NCBI GenBank assembly: GCA_015063495.1
Contig: SVUB01000003.1
Span: 1 to 47,266 of the forward strand
DNA from: Oscillospiraceae bacterium
Lineage (GTDB): Bacteria; Bacillota; Clostridia; Oscillospirales; CAG-272
Length of the DNA stretch: 47,266 bases
Direction of reading: 5' to 3'
This document shows, piece by piece, positions 6,880 through 33,941 of this stretch. Numbering within the stretch: the first letter of the stretch is position 1; each line of letters begins with the position of its first letter. The translations under genes and the position numbers were made by a program. The notes beneath the pieces are model-generated. The model did no database searches. It was not told where the DNA came from and saw only the letters and a list, made by a program, of their open reading frames with translations.

Positions 6880-7064
6880 GGTGGCAGACTATCTGCCGTA
6901 GGTGTTGACACTTCGGGGATGTTTAGGACTATTCCCGAGGGGAATATATGAGTTCCGATATGTTTTTGATTTGCAAGCATCAGCTTATTTGTGTGGGCTA
7001 CGTCGCCGAGAGTTCTATCGGCTATCTTGTCCCACATATCGCCTTGAACTGTAGTATATATCAT
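6858..7064 (-). CDS. Tail protein X (LysM-like)
   Basis: YTTVQGDMWDKIADRTLGD...LMLANQ...IFPSGIVLNIP. Confidence 0.85.
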   Translation of the reverse strand: MIYTTVQGDMWDKIADRTLGDVAHTNKLMLANQKHIGTHIFPSGIVLNIPEVSTPTADSLPPWKKVGG

Positions 7065-10000
7065 ACAAAAGCCCCTCTCTTTGCGTCAATTCCTATCTCC
7101 GATAGCTTTTCGAGCACTTTATCAGCGATAATATCTCCGTATTCTTCAAGTTTATCTGCGGCGTTTTCGTCGCCCGAAATATTGAAGATAGGTGAAATTG
7201 AGATCTCGACGCGTCCGGCAGAATTGCCAATGCTCAATGATGAAGGAAGCACATCCGAAGAAAAAGAATTATATGTGTTTATAAGCGTTCGGAGCATCCG
7301 CTCTGTCTCAATGGCATTATATACGGCTTCTCCGCCTCCGAAGTCTATGATTTCGGGACCATTCTCTCCTACAATGTGGACACCCGGAGAGGCGTAATCT
7401 GTACCGCTTGCGTAACCGCTCGGCAACATAGACCACGTTCTCCATTCGTTCTCAAAATGCGAATTTTGCTTTTCCCATTGAATTTCCTTCTTGCCGAATA
7501 CAGATGCAAGGTCGTTAAGAATATCTGCGGCTTCCTCGGAGCCTTCAAGCAAAGCATTTATATAGGCATCCATAGATGCCTTTGCCGCCACTTCCATTTC
7601 CTCGGACAAATTGAGCTCTTCTACCGTCTCGCGCATCTGTTTTTCGATGGCTTGAAGCTCTTCTGACGTAGCTTGCGCAAGTGACTTTGCCGCTTCGTCC
7701 TGTTGTTCCTTCATTTTGCTGTAGTTTCCTACCATCAATCGGAGTTCCTCGTCAGAAGCTGCGGCCATACCGGCGATCGCATTCACACTGTCCGGACTTC
7801 CATCGGCAAAAGATGCTATGACTTCCGCAAGACCATCTATATCCTCACCTCTATCAAGAAGCTCGGACATATCTTTGTTATAATCGCTCCAATATGCAGC
7901 CTGAGTAGCAAGTGCGTTGTTGATATCCTCAATACTCTTCGGAACAACATCTGCGGCGTTGTCCCAAAGTGCAAACTGACCTGTGATACTCTCATATGCG
8001 GCATCGTAGATTTCCTGATATATCTCGATATAGGATTTCCCAAGTTCTTCGACTTTTGAAATCATATCACCGCTTGCTTCAACTGCGCTACGGGACATAC
8101 CCTCATATTTTTCCTCGAACTCTTCTACTACCCTGAGCGCTTTTTCATATTTAAAGATTATACCGTCTTCTTCAGATTTGTGAATATCACGGTAATCTTC
8201 CCAAGCTTTTTTAGCTTTATCACGTACTTCCGCAAGCCGATATGATTCTTCATTGAATTTTCGGAGATCATCATCAGTCATATTGAAGTTAGTCTCGTTT
8301 GCTTTGATATGATCGTTAAGGGCTTTTTCGGATTCGTCATATTCGTCTTTAAGACTTTGTAATTCTTTTATCGCATCCTCATAATCCTTCGAATATGCTC
8401 CGATATATCCCACGTTATCAACATAGTTATCCCAGTCCGCTTTATTGGTATCTTTAGCTGCCTCTGCTGCGGCGAGCTCACGAAGTTTTTCTGTGGGAAT
8501 ATTAAGCTTTCCTGTGATACTGTCAATCGTAAGCCCTAAATTTTCATATCGACTGTTAAGCTCGTCCACTATCGGTTTTATAAGTGCTTGCTTTCCAGCG
8601 ACTGTTTCAGATTCCATTCCAAGCTCTTCGAGCTTGTTAATAAGGGCTATGCTACTTTCATATTCATTATCAATGCTTTCGATGTTTTTTTCGTATTCTT
8701 CTGAAGTTGCATTGAGAATTTTTGCAATACTTATCAGTTCTTCCTTGTGAGCTTCTGCTGTCTGACGAGAAGCTTCATATTCTTCGGTTAGACTTTTTAT
8801 TTGCTCTTCGAGTAACCACGCTTCGTAAGTGTTTTCACCTTCAACTTCGGTAAGGGCTTGGTATTCGGCTTTCAGTGCGTCAAGTTCAATAGCCTGTTTG
8901 CGTGATGTTGCTGTTAAATCTTTATAGATTGCTGTTGCATCTTCGGCTTCTGATACTGTTGCTTCAACTATACCTGCAAGTCCGGCAATCACAGCGGTGA
9001 TAGCCAGTATAGGACCAATTCCGGGAATGGCACTTGACATAGCTACACCAAGACCTTTTAGAAGTGGGATAACCTTTGTTACTATACCTGTGAAAGCCAC
9101 AAAACCTGCCGTAGCGGTCCCCATAACAGTTGCACCTGCCGTAACTCCCCTTACGAGTTCCGGATGCTCATCTACGAAACCGGTAAGGGCCACAAGCGCC
9201 TCGTTCTCGACTTCCTTCAGCTTAGTATACATAGGCGCAAGCTGACCACCTACTGTATTCTTCAGCGCGGTCATATTACTGTTCTGTTTTTGCAGTTCGT
9301 CATCAAGAGCCATACAAGCGGCAAGTGTTTCGTCGTTCATGACGTATCCGGCTCTTTTAGCCTCTGCAGCATATTCTTTTATAACACCGGATCCTGCCGC
9401 AACGAGAGTATTCACCTGCTGAGCACTTCGGCCGAGCAGTTCTATCGCAACAGCGTCCCTCTCGGTCTCATTTTCCATAGCACCAAGAGCATCAATAACC
9501 TCCCAATATACCGTTTCGGAATCACGAAGCTGTCCGTCCGCATCGGTCACCTTTATACCAAGCTTTTCGTATGCCTCAACATAGCTCTCTGTACCGTCTC
9601 TTGCGGAGTTCATTGCGCGGATATTACGGCTCATAGTAGAGGTTAAGGTCTCTGCACTTACGTCTACAAGTTCGGCGGCATAATAAAATGCTTGCAGGTC
9701 CTCTGCAGCGATACTGTATTGAACAGATACCGTTCCGATTTCATCTGCATAAGATGCCGAGCCTTTGGTTAAGTCCACCATAAGGTCATAACCTTCTTTA
9801 AGCATTTTAAGAATACCCGCCGCTGCAAGGGCTTCTCCAACCTCCTTAAAAGCGTTAGCACCCTTATCGCCTAATTCTTCGCTTGATTCGGCGGTTTCAT
9901 CTTGCTTCTTTTTGAGGTCGCCTATTTTGCCTTGTATCTTGTCGATCTCGTCACCGAGAGCTTTTGTATTGATGCCTGCATCTTTAAGCTCTTTTCCCAT

Positions 10001-10366
10001 ATTTTTCAGAGCTTCACGGTTCTTTTCCTCTTGCTCGGCAGCACTTGACAGCTTTCTCTCAAGATCGAGTATCTTATTCGCGAGCTCCGAAGTGCCGGCG
10101 GCGTGCTGTCCGTTTTCCTTGGTCAGCGCTTGAAGCTCTCTCTTGAGATTGGATATCTGAGCTCTATAAGTGTCCTGCTGTTTAAGGCATTTAGCCATTG
10201 CCGCTTCTTGCTTCTGATAAGCGGATATATTGCTTTGCTGTTTACTGAGATTTTGAATTTCTTTTTGCGTTTCAATGAGGTTTTTTTGTGCTGTGCTAAA
10301 GGTGTTTCCAAAGCTCGAAGAAAGCTGTGCGCCTACCTTTAGCATCATTTCATATACGGTTGCCAA
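7061..10366 (-). CDS. Tail tape measure protein
   Basis: ~1100 aa coiled-coil protein with hydrophobic middle. I propose the TTG start at 10366 (AGAGGTG upstream) giving MATVYEMMLKVGAQL, rather than the ORF-track ATG at 10399. Confidence 0.85.
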   Translation of the reverse strand: MATVYEMMLKVGAQLSSSFGNTFSTAQKNLIETQKEIQNLSKQQSNISAYQKQEAAMAKCLKQQDTYRAQISNLKRELQALTKENGQHAAGTSELANKILDLERKLSSAAEQEEKNREALKNMGKELKDAGINTKALGDEIDKIQGKIGDLKKKQDETAESSEELGDKGANAFKEVGEALAAAGILKMLKEGYDLMVDLTKGSASYADEIGTVSVQYSIAAEDLQAFYYAAELVDVSAETLTSTMSRNIRAMNSARDGTESYVEAYEKLGIKVTDADGQLRDSETVYWEVIDALGAMENETERDAVAIELLGRSAQQVNTLVAAGSGVIKEYAAEAKRAGYVMNDETLAACMALDDELQKQNSNMTALKNTVGGQLAPMYTKLKEVENEALVALTGFVDEHPELVRGVTAGATVMGTATAGFVAFTGIVTKVIPLLKGLGVAMSSAIPGIGPILAITAVIAGLAGIVEATVSEAEDATAIYKDLTATSRKQAIELDALKAEYQALTEVEGENTYEAWLLEEQIKSLTEEYEASRQTAEAHKEELISIAKILNATSEEYEKNIESIDNEYESSIALINKLEELGMESETVAGKQALIKPIVDELNSRYENLGLTIDSITGKLNIPTEKLRELAAAEAAKDTNKADWDNYVDNVGYIGAYSKDYEDAIKELQSLKDEYDESEKALNDHIKANETNFNMTDDDLRKFNEESYRLAEVRDKAKKAWEDYRDIHKSEEDGIIFKYEKALRVVEEFEEKYEGMSRSAVEASGDMISKVEELGKSYIEIYQEIYDAAYESITGQFALWDNAADVVPKSIEDINNALATQAAYWSDYNKDMSELLDRGEDIDGLAEVIASFADGSPDSVNAIAGMAAASDEELRLMVGNYSKMKEQQDEAAKSLAQATSEELQAIEKQMRETVEELNLSEEMEVAAKASMDAYINALLEGSEEAADILNDLASVFGKKEIQWEKQNSHFENEWRTWSMLPSGYASGTDYASPGVHIVGENGPEIIDFGGGEAVYNAIETERMLRTLINTYNSFSSDVLPSSLSIGNSAGRVEISISPIFNISGDENAADKLEEYGDIIADKVLEKLSEIGIDAKRGAFV

Positions 10367-10370
10367 ATCT

Positions 10371-10546
10371 TCACCTCTTGTTCTTTGTTTCTTCCGCAAG
10401 GTCTATGTATGATCTTGCCCATTCTTTAAGTTCTCGCAAAGGCAGAGAAAGCCAATACGGAACCGGTGTATGTGTTTCTCTCGACAATATCAAGCATAGC
10501 CTCATAAGTTCGTCGCAGCTGTCGTTTTTTACAACTCCGACTTCAG
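10371..10546 (-). CDS. -1 frameshift extension (gpE'-type) of the tail assembly chaperone
   Basis: After T_TTT_TTG at 10547-10553 the -1 frame reads AEVGVVKNDSCDELMRLCLILSRETHTPVPYWLSLPLRELKEWARSYIDLAEETKNKR* (stop at 10371-10373). Confidence 0.75.
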
Positions 10547-10933
10547 CAAAAAAGCCTTTGCCCTGCCTGTGAGCTTATTGAAATCATACATCGACACGTT
10601 ATCAAAGAAATCTGCGCCGATTTTTTCCTCGCAAGCCCTCACAACTACTCTTACAAGATATTCCTCGGAGAGCGTCGGAACGAGCACGGTTATACCGAGG
10701 GTCTGAAGCTCTCTGCTTATAGCCCTTGAATCTTTTCCTGTGAGCTTATCAAAGTCTATATTGAGGGCCTTTATCTCGGTTTCGCCGTATTTAACAGGCT
10801 TTTTCAGTGTATACGTAAGCCTTGTTCCTACGTTTTCTATATCATCGGTCTCTTCGTTAAAATTATCGAGAATCTTATTATCTTCATCATCGGTCTCTTC
10901 GTTAAAATTATCGAGAATCTTATTTTCTTCCAT
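10529..10933 (-). CDS. Tail assembly chaperone, unshifted product (gpE-like)
   Basis: Position between tube and tape measure; contains slippery heptamer near its 3' end. Confidence 0.8.
   Translation of the reverse strand: MEENKILDNFNEETDDEDNKILDNFNEETDDIENVGTRLTYTLKKPVKYGETEIKALNIDFDKLTGKDSRAISRELQTLGITVLVPTLSEEYLVRVVVRACEEKIGADFFDNVSMYDFNKLTGRAKAFLLKSEL
10841..10930. repeat. Two tandem copies of a 45-bp unit (10841-10885, 10886-10930), in frame
   Basis: atcatcggtctcttcgttaaaattatcgagaatcttatt[a/t]tcttc twice; encodes DEDNKILDNFNEETD-type repeat. Confidence 0.95.
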
Positions 10934-10960
10934 GGTTATAACTCCTTTATAAATAAATTT

Positions 10961-10986
10961 CGGAGAAGGGCTTTTGCCCTCCTCCG
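10961..10986 (-). terminator. Hairpin between tube and chaperone genes (attenuator/weak terminator or processing site)
   Basis: cggag-a-agggc tttt gccct-c-ctccg, weak U tract. Confidence 0.5.
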
Positions 10987-10996
10987 TTTCAAAAAA

Positions 10997-11509
10997 TTAC
11001 TTACCGAGCGCACTGCGCACTTCGGCGAGACTGTCGGTGCCGTCTGCACCAACGTCTTTAAAGTTTACGGGATCTATATCGCGGACGAGAATGCCGTCGA
11101 TATAGTCCTTGCGAGCGAGTACGCTGTATTCGCCCGAAATGCTCTGAGGAGTAGCGGGAGCAACGTCACCGCCACCGAGCTTCTTGGGAATGATATCAAG
11201 GATATGCTTATACGCTTTAACCTTGAGAGCCCCGGACGTACTATCATATTCTTCGTGTGCCGCACGGAGATCTATCGTATGCTTGCGGTTTTCTGCGAGC
11301 TTATATGCCGCTTCGGTCGCATCAGTAAATGTTATTGTGGCGGTCATTGCGTTTCTGTGTCCGGGTACGGGAAGATCTATATCACCTGCAATGCCTGCGC
11401 CGTTTACGGTAAAAGTCTTATTTTCGGTATCGGGAAGCGTTACCTTCGCAACTCCGAGATATTCACTGCCGTTTTCATATACGGCAAAATTTATTACACC
11501 GGCTTTCAT
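10997..11509 (-). CDS. Major tail tube protein
   Basis: Directly downstream of sheath; VTLPDTENKTFTVNGAGIAGDIDLPVPGHRNAMTATITF, FII-like. Confidence 0.85.
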   Translation of the reverse strand: MKAGVINFAVYENGSEYLGVAKVTLPDTENKTFTVNGAGIAGDIDLPVPGHRNAMTATITFTDATEAAYKLAENRKHTIDLRAAHEEYDSTSGALKVKAYKHILDIIPKKLGGGDVAPATPQSISGEYSVLARKDYIDGILVRDIDPVNFKDVGADGTDSLAEVRSALGK

Positions 11510-11521
11510 TTGTTACCTCCT

Positions 11522-12943
11522 TTAACCGTTAAGCGAAGATACGAGAGTATCTACGTCAAATTCGGAATACATATTGATCTGCTGCATAGGTACGGGCGAT
11601 GCGAACGTGGTATCAAGACGGATCTTTCCTCCAACGAGAGAAGCCGCAGGGTTATTGTCCGCGATATACTCGATCTGTCCACCATAGAGCTTGCCCTCGT
11701 GAATAAGTCCAGCCAGCCAAGAATTAAAGCTGTTGACAATAGAGTCGATCCTGACTCTCGTCATAGGCTTATCTATCTCGCTCCAGAAAGTATTTGTGAA
11801 GGTGTTATTTATCCAGTCATGCATACGGTTTGTGCAAATAAAGTATTCTGCAACGTCCGCACTTGCGGGATAGCACGCTGTATGATTGCCCCAAAGCACC
11901 CAACCGTCGAAATTGAATGCTGTTACTACACCTGCGGTAGTAGATACGATATCTGCCTGTGCAAGTGTCAGGTTGATATCCTCACCTGCTTCGTTGCAAA
12001 GTCCGGATATGGAAAGAGATTTGTTTGAGGGGGATTCATAAGGACATCCGCCGTTTTCGGTGTCAACGCTTGCAATTTGGCCGCATACGATAACCGACAT
12101 ATCGAAGAGATAGTCGCCAACCTTAGCGATACCCCAAGCGTCTATCATATTTTCATCCGTATATCCGTTATCGTTCTTCCACTTAAGTACCTTATCGTAT
12201 GTAGGTGCGCCTGTAGCAGAGCTGTCGATATCGCATACAGCCTTGCCATAGAATAGACCACCGATAGAAGGTGCCTTTGCTGCCATAACCGCTGCAACGC
12301 TGGGAAGCTTGGAATAACCGGGAGCGCAGATAAGATCGGGAATGATACCGAGAACTGTCTTGCAGAGATCAGCCTTCTCGATAGCCGCTTCAATATCAGT
12401 TGCTTTGATTGCAGAAGGATCTGCGGTCTTGCCCGATACGGTAAGAGATGTCGCTTCATAACCTGCGCCTTCCTTCAAAAGCTCTATAAAACATCCGTCA
12501 TCATAGATGATCTCATAGTCTGTACCCTCTGAAAGGGCCGTTTCCCCCGCCTTAACGATAAGATCGGTGGCTATAACGTCTGCAGAAAGCTTTGCAATAT
12601 GATTTTCGACCTCAACAGAAGTCTCAGCCATCGCCTCTGTGTGCTTTGAAGGATCAAAGACATTGATAAAGATCGCTGGGGACATTCCAAAAAGCTTGAA
12701 ATGCGAATACATAGCCTGACAGAGGTTCCATTTAGGAGAAAAATCGGAATTTCTCCATTCGTTGCTATATCCGCCCTTTTCCTTTGCCTCCGCAAAGCTC
12801 GTTGCAAGGACGGGAGTATCGACATAGCCTGCCGCCATATGACAAGGCCACGCTCCGATGAAAAGCGGAATACCTACAGCTGCAGTCTTTACAGCTGAAA
12901 AGGATGTGTCGCTTTTGTAAGTGTTGATTCCATGGTTAAGCAT
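11522..12943 (-). CDS. Tail sheath protein (contractile tail)
   Basis: N-term HGINTYKSDTSF...VGIPLFIGAWP and C-term MPMQQINMYSEFDVDTL, FI-like. Confidence 0.88.
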   Translation of the reverse strand: MLNHGINTYKSDTSFSAVKTAAVGIPLFIGAWPCHMAAGYVDTPVLATSFAEAKEKGGYSNEWRNSDFSPKWNLCQAMYSHFKLFGMSPAIFINVFDPSKHTEAMAETSVEVENHIAKLSADVIATDLIVKAGETALSEGTDYEIIYDDGCFIELLKEGAGYEATSLTVSGKTADPSAIKATDIEAAIEKADLCKTVLGIIPDLICAPGYSKLPSVAAVMAAKAPSIGGLFYGKAVCDIDSSATGAPTYDKVLKWKNDNGYTDENMIDAWGIAKVGDYLFDMSVIVCGQIASVDTENGGCPYESPSNKSLSISGLCNEAGEDINLTLAQADIVSTTAGVVTAFNFDGWVLWGNHTACYPASADVAEYFICTNRMHDWINNTFTNTFWSEIDKPMTRVRIDSIVNSFNSWLAGLIHEGKLYGGQIEYIADNNPAASLVGGKIRLDTTFASPVPMQQINMYSEFDVDTLVSSLNG

Positions 12944-33459: not shown

Positions 33460-33696
33460 TTACACCTCCGACGATATCAGCGTTCCGGAGTTTACTGTTA
33501 TCGGGCTCTGCTTCATAAGTGGATGATTTTCCGCTTTCATTTTTGCGATCTTCTCGTCAAGGAACTCTTTTCCACCGGGCTCTTCAAGAATTTTTCTGAT
33601 AGACTTATACCCCGATCGACCAATGCAAAACCGTTTACTCTCAGAAAAGCTATCTATCTCTTCTTTCGGTATTTTGAATTTTGGTGTGTTGCTCAT
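33460..33696 (-). CDS. Small phage early protein
   Basis: Start MSNTPKFKIPKEEIDSFSESKRF; downstream of distal operator pair. Confidence 0.55.
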   Translation of the reverse strand: MSNTPKFKIPKEEIDSFSESKRFCIGRSGYKSIRKILEEPGGKEFLDEKIAKMKAENHPLMKQSPITVNSGTLISSEV

Positions 33697-33709
33697 AAAT
33701 CTCTCCTTT

Positions 33710-33733
33710 TTGAACTTCAATATCATTGAACTT
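33710..33733. promoter_or_regulatory. Distal candidate operator pair, TTGAACTT half-sites
   Basis: TTGAACTT at 33710-33717 and 33726-33733; TTCAA-N5-TTGAA at 33716-33730. Confidence 0.5.
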
Positions 33734-33941
33734 TTGAGACAAAAAAATAATCGCTCAGTTGACACTCCGGAATATCGAGAACTTCTATAGCAGCTTGCAT
33801 TTCTGATTGTTTGAACGGACGGATATTATTAAGTTTTAATGATAACGAACGTTCTGATAGCTTTATTTTTTTTGCAAAATTAGCTTGTGTCCCGCACTTT
33901 TCCTTGATTTTTCCTGATAGTTTACTGTAATCGTATAACAT
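33723..33941 (-). CDS. Cro-like HTH regulator
   Basis: GTQANFAKKIKLSERSLSLKLNNIRPFKQSEM; divergent from CI-like gene. Confidence 0.8.
   Translation of the reverse strand: MLYDYSKLSGKIKEKCGTQANFAKKIKLSERSLSLKLNNIRPFKQSEMQAAIEVLDIPECQLSDYFFVSKVQ

Follow-up and report, generated by a model that had tools for sequence, protein, structure and literature searches.

The tail gene cluster and the anatomy of the chaperone gene

The stretch of DNA analysed here (the window, 47,266 nucleotides from an Oscillospiraceae bacterium) contains a prophage whose tail genes lie on the minus strand in the order sheath, FII-type tube, chaperone ORF and tape measure, followed by the tail X and baseplate hub genes. 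The tail is contractile, of the P2/Mu type. Its sheath protein (11522..12943) is recognised by phrog_23 (tail sheath, E 5.4e-60), its FII-family tube protein (10997..11509) by PF04985 (Phage_tube, E 2.2e-32), and the tape-measure gene (7061..10366) by a number of tape-measure PHROGs, among them phrog_8462 (E 4.4e-32). The last of these genes likely starts at the in-frame TTG at 10366, ahead of which lies its likely Shine-Dalgarno sequence, AGAGGTGA (10371..10378); the mechanical ORF list begins it at TTG 10399. Between the PF04985 tube gene upstream and the tape measure downstream, which is the place expected of a tail assembly chaperone, lies an ORF encoding a gpG/gpE-like protein of 134 aa in its zero frame (10529..10933, ATG 10933-10931, TAA 10531-10529). 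A 45-bp tandem duplication with one mismatch (10930-10841) is found at the start of this gene, doubling EE/DNKILDNFNEETDD, and is absent in the congeners L016 and L017.

A previous sequence-only reading had proposed that this gene contains a programmed -1 frameshift, and direct reading of the sequence bears out most of the anatomy that it described. The heptamer T_TTT_TTG (10547..10553) is present and is read in the zero frame as GC[T TTT TTG] (phase 2). The five sense codons CTG AAG TCG GAG TTG come next, and TAA is the sixth codon, as that reading had counted. The segment from the heptamer to the zero-frame stop (10532..10546) is read in both frames. The -1 frame, encoding a gpT/gpE'-like extension (10371..10547), stays open for 58 codons (AEVGVV...TKNKR) and gives a fusion of 187 aa, matching the proposed length; its TGA (10373-10371) falls inside AGAGGTGA ahead of TTG 10366, and hence at the tape-measure ribosome-binding site as had been suggested. 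The explanation offered for the absence of the extension from the ORF track, namely the lack of an ATG, has to be revised: an ATG at 10505-10503 opens a 44-codon ORF in the -1 frame, which is missing from the list because of its 60-aa length cut-off.

In Markov-shuffled versions of the gene, an in-phase heptamer within the last 15 codons occurs jointly with a -1 frame open for 57 codons at a frequency of 0.0009. A looser mechanical test for the heptamer is passed by 4 of the 173 ORFs in the whole window that measure at least 80 aa from stop to stop, the other three passing places being (+) 10300-10572, which is antisense to the chaperone gene, (+) 33527-33790 and (-) 20737-20363. Because of these additional cases the sequence anatomy is not enough by itself and can only be considered suggestive of a frameshift gene, the conservation described below being decisive.

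Profile comparisons place the gene in PHROG 3140, annotated as 'tail assembly chaperone'. This profile aligns unbroken across the junction, with residues 26-185 of the fusion covering profile positions 116-273 of 274 (107.7 bits, E 1.4e-30) against 88 bits for the zero frame alone (E 1.4e-24), and the -1 extension by itself matches PHROG 30074 (E 5.3e-8). The match to PF10109 (Phage_TAC_7, 'E, or 41 or 14') reaches 21.8 bits, under the gathering score of 25 bits, and the same model is matched at E up to 0.01 by 13 of 19 relatives, with a best value of 3.2e-8; the chaperone is a distant relative of this family and not a threshold member. A search of solved structures yielded only chance-level matches, none better than E 0.1 and all to an unrelated protein.

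Conservation of the slip site and the -1 extension

The sequence-only reading had pointed to homologous phages as the place to look for the heptamer and the open -1 frame. All eight phage records examined, from Faecalibacterium, Vibrio, Pararheinheimera and Paenibacillus phages, carry an in-phase TTTTTTG together with an open and homologous -1 extension. We further recovered relatives mostly by searching whole genomes, blind to the heptamer and the extension, with either PHROG 3140 or the zero-frame protein. On whole genomes, PHROG 3140 performed better than single-protein scans of genome contigs and viral contigs, which returned few relatives; an alignment of the relatives had no stretch sufficiently conserved for scanning contigs. 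In the resulting set, which also takes in the phage records and a small number of contigs retrieved with the fusion, the recognisable extension lies in the -1 frame at 51 of 51 loci and a canonical in-phase X_XXY_YYZ heptamer is present at 50 of them, with the loci being partly non-independent on account of several near-identical pairs. The extension was scored by a separate profile, whose final version was iterated on the same locus set; the first version, built from seven phage sequences, already recovered most of the 51 loci. Both of the sequence-level checks suggested earlier, for the heptamer and for the open -1 frame, thereby come out in favour, and taken together with gene order and the family matches, these counts support the earlier proposal of a tail assembly chaperone with a -1 frameshift.

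The heptamers among the relatives are T_TTT_TTG/A/C/T, G_GGT_TTT or A_AAT_TTT. The sole relative with a recognisable extension and no canonical heptamer (L060) has G_GTT_TTC at this position, and its extension is still in the -1 frame. Two loci (L020 and L021), and a third (L052) as judged from profile span, encode zero-frame proteins with two tandem chaperone domains, with a slip site of T_TTT_TTC or T_TTT_TTA one codon ahead of the stop. Across the relatives, the position of the zero-frame stop drifts from 1 to 22 codons past the heptamer while the heptamer and the extension stay, showing that what is retained is the slip site and the extension rather than the end of the zero-frame tail. The -1 frame also displays a coding signature, with substitutions most frequent at the third position of the codon (23/15/36 and 22/14/30 in comparisons with the two congeners). 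Among 19 aligned fusions, only F128 and G133 are invariant, and these flank the slip immediately before and after it.

This pattern of conservation bears on three other explanations for the two frames. The -1 frame might represent a small gene in its own right, which ribosomes would enter by re-initiation or at ATG 10505-10503 (44 aa), and the records of Taranis, Lily and KLER1-1 indeed carry short separate ORFs in this region. However, no Shine-Dalgarno sequence is seen ahead of this ATG, and a separate gene leaves the in-phase heptamer unexplained. Moreover, an ATG is missing from the extension of about ten relatives, the congener L016 among them, and conservation begins exactly at the slip junction with the invariant F128 and G133, all of which makes internal initiation very unlikely. 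Slightly less probable still is transcriptional slippage on the T6 run, by which the polymerase itself would produce frame-shifted mRNAs. Most members do carry a homopolymer run, but six T is short for polymerase slippage, and the strict phase of the heptamer fits the ribosome. The two processes can be separated on account of the six G_GGT_TTT loci, which have only four T and yet obey X_XXY_YYZ, as would fit slippage of tandem tRNAs. Finally, homopolymers are error-prone and the source genome is an incomplete assembly of 95 contigs, such that one ordinary ORF could in principle have been split by decay of the gene or by a mistake in sequencing or assembling the T run. This we regard as having a negligible chance of being correct, given that the same split and T run are found in the finished genomes of the isolated phages Pioen, Taranis, PVP-XSN, X29, Lily and phiERICV, that the split recurs in dozens of genomes, and that an IMG/VR contig is identical across the 153 residues compared. 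On the whole, it is very probable that the gene makes a pair of tail assembly chaperones, one short and one frameshifted, through a -1 slip.

RNA structures at the slip site and in the tube-chaperone gap

A stem-loop (10512..10541) that starts 5 nt after the heptamer is probably a stimulator of the predicted frameshift. It consists of 4 + 6 bp with one 1x1 mismatch and an 8-nt loop, has a folding energy of -14.3 kcal/mol (z -4.79, with 0 of 200 shuffles as stable), and the zero-frame TAA reaches from the end of its 5' arm into the loop. Equally far from its heptamer, the congener L017 forms another stem, a perfect one of 9 bp; L016 has no hairpin at the slip site, and L060 has an 8-bp stem downstream of its unusual heptamer. 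Most relatives have a weak hairpin here or none, so it is not essential to the family. Nevertheless, the 40 nt beginning 3 nt past the heptamer are on average more structured than control positions (other stretches of the same genes) across 44 loci, with a mean z of -1.15 versus -0.12 (Wilcoxon p 1.4e-4, or p 0.005 without the G_GGT_TTT loci), these p-values being optimistic since the loci are related. The six G_GGT_TTT loci form the most structured group (mean z -3.2). Upstream of the heptamer, a weak Shine-Dalgarno-like AGGG perhaps raises the slip rate; such pairing is slightly enriched among the relatives (p 0.02).

A second hairpin, terminator-like in form (10961..10986, 11-bp stem, 4-nt loop, T-rich tail), occupies the gap between the tube and chaperone genes, where the surrounding 71-nt region has a z of -4.8. 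Hairpins of different sequence, several of them with a T-run, are found at the same gap in many relatives, and z falls below -3 at 16 of 43 loci against a control mean of -0.45. This element may act as a partial terminator or as a protector of the mRNA end, lowering the output of the chaperone and tape measure relative to the tube. No Rfam family was matched above its gathering score; a weak match to the cow-rumen-4 RNA (10937-10987 on the minus strand, 27 bits against a gathering score of 48.5) overlaps the gap hairpin and was not found in 11 relatives, and it probably represents merely this hairpin.

The two structures together raise the prospect of a two-layer control of dosage across the clade, here meaning prophages mostly from the order and class of the source bacterium. 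Frameshifting would be tuned by a hairpin 4-9 nt past a variable heptamer (T_TTT_TTN, G_GGT_TTT, A_AAT_TTT and the one non-canonical G_GTT_TTC with its 8-bp stem), while in many members the terminator-like hairpin of the tube-chaperone gap would supply the other layer. We put this forward tentatively, giving it slightly less than an even chance.

Predicted mechanism and comparison with known systems

Tailed phages as a rule use frameshifting to obtain a pair of helper proteins for tail building from a single gene. The sequence evidence is consistent with a similar course of events at this locus, in which most ribosomes would halt at the zero-frame TAA and release the short chaperone, whereas a minority would slip back by one base on the heptamer, with the Phe-tRNA of the P site and the Leu-tRNA of the A site pairing anew on TTT TTT, and continue through the 58 further codons to yield the long one. 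The hairpin downstream would probably lift the rate of this slip. By analogy with lambda G/GT, the shared N-terminal part would coat the tape measure, and the extension, made more rarely, would recruit tube subunits, with the ratio of the two forms mattering in tail assembly. Chaperones of the lambda G/GT and P2 E/E+E' type characteristically bind both the tape measure and the tube protein and do not form part of the mature virion. The predicted frameshifted chaperone is thus a further case of a known type, whose mechanism has been understood since the work on lambda and P2. What is added here is the slip-site hairpin, with its positional enrichment in relatives, and the terminator-like hairpin between tube and chaperone. 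The analysis also adds a predicted tail protein, so far unannotated, for this prophage and for dozens of related ones, in which ORF callers report the short form alone or divide the gene wrongly. Furthermore, the differing heptamers that occur naturally, some with a hairpin and some lacking one, offer a ready test set for the tuning of frameshift efficiency, which would set the proportion of short to long chaperone.

One of the closest known systems is gpE/gpE+E' of P2 (Peduoviridae). The -1 shift that the sequence-only reading cited for P2 at this locus agrees with the published slip of E/E+E' at TTTTTTG (PMC3091744; NC_001895). P2 shares with the prophage this heptamer and its phase, a stop a few codons later, an extension of nearly equal length (57 aa vs 58), the order tube - chaperone - tape measure and a contractile tail. 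The extensions belong to different PHROGs (1756 in P2, 3140/30074 in the prophage), and when the profiles are compared, the alignment to P2 E+E' stays collinear across the slip site with statistically weak similarity (probability 6.6%). Unlike the prophage, with its stable hairpin 5 nt downstream of the heptamer, P2 and its Burkholderia relatives had no downstream structure reported in a published screen (PMC3091744). By this analogy, the prophage chaperone would work in the manner of P2 E/E+E', of which it is at most a distant relative.

In the Vibrio phages X29, PVP-XSN and R20L, both halves of the protein are homologous to those of the prophage, and TTTTTTG and a downstream hairpin are shared, although identity is about 30%, the N-terminus is shorter and the stop lies two codons past the heptamer; the public record of X29 annotates the gene as a join, 'lambda gpGT analog'. 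The closest named relatives are from the Faecalibacterium phages Pioen and FP_Taranis (orf15 / gp55-gp56), at about 40% and 38% identity, which have TTTTTTG five codons ahead of the stop and differ in having no slip-site hairpin. Their records (PP479940.1 and NC_047914.1; L007 and L008) lack a joined gene while sharing the slip site. The gpG/gpGT pair of lambda, whose slip heptamer is G_GGA_AAG, has the same arrangement and presumed function but belongs to another family and to a siphovirus tail. In lambda, the short chaperone binds the tape measure and the long one also recruits the tube protein (PMC5009743).
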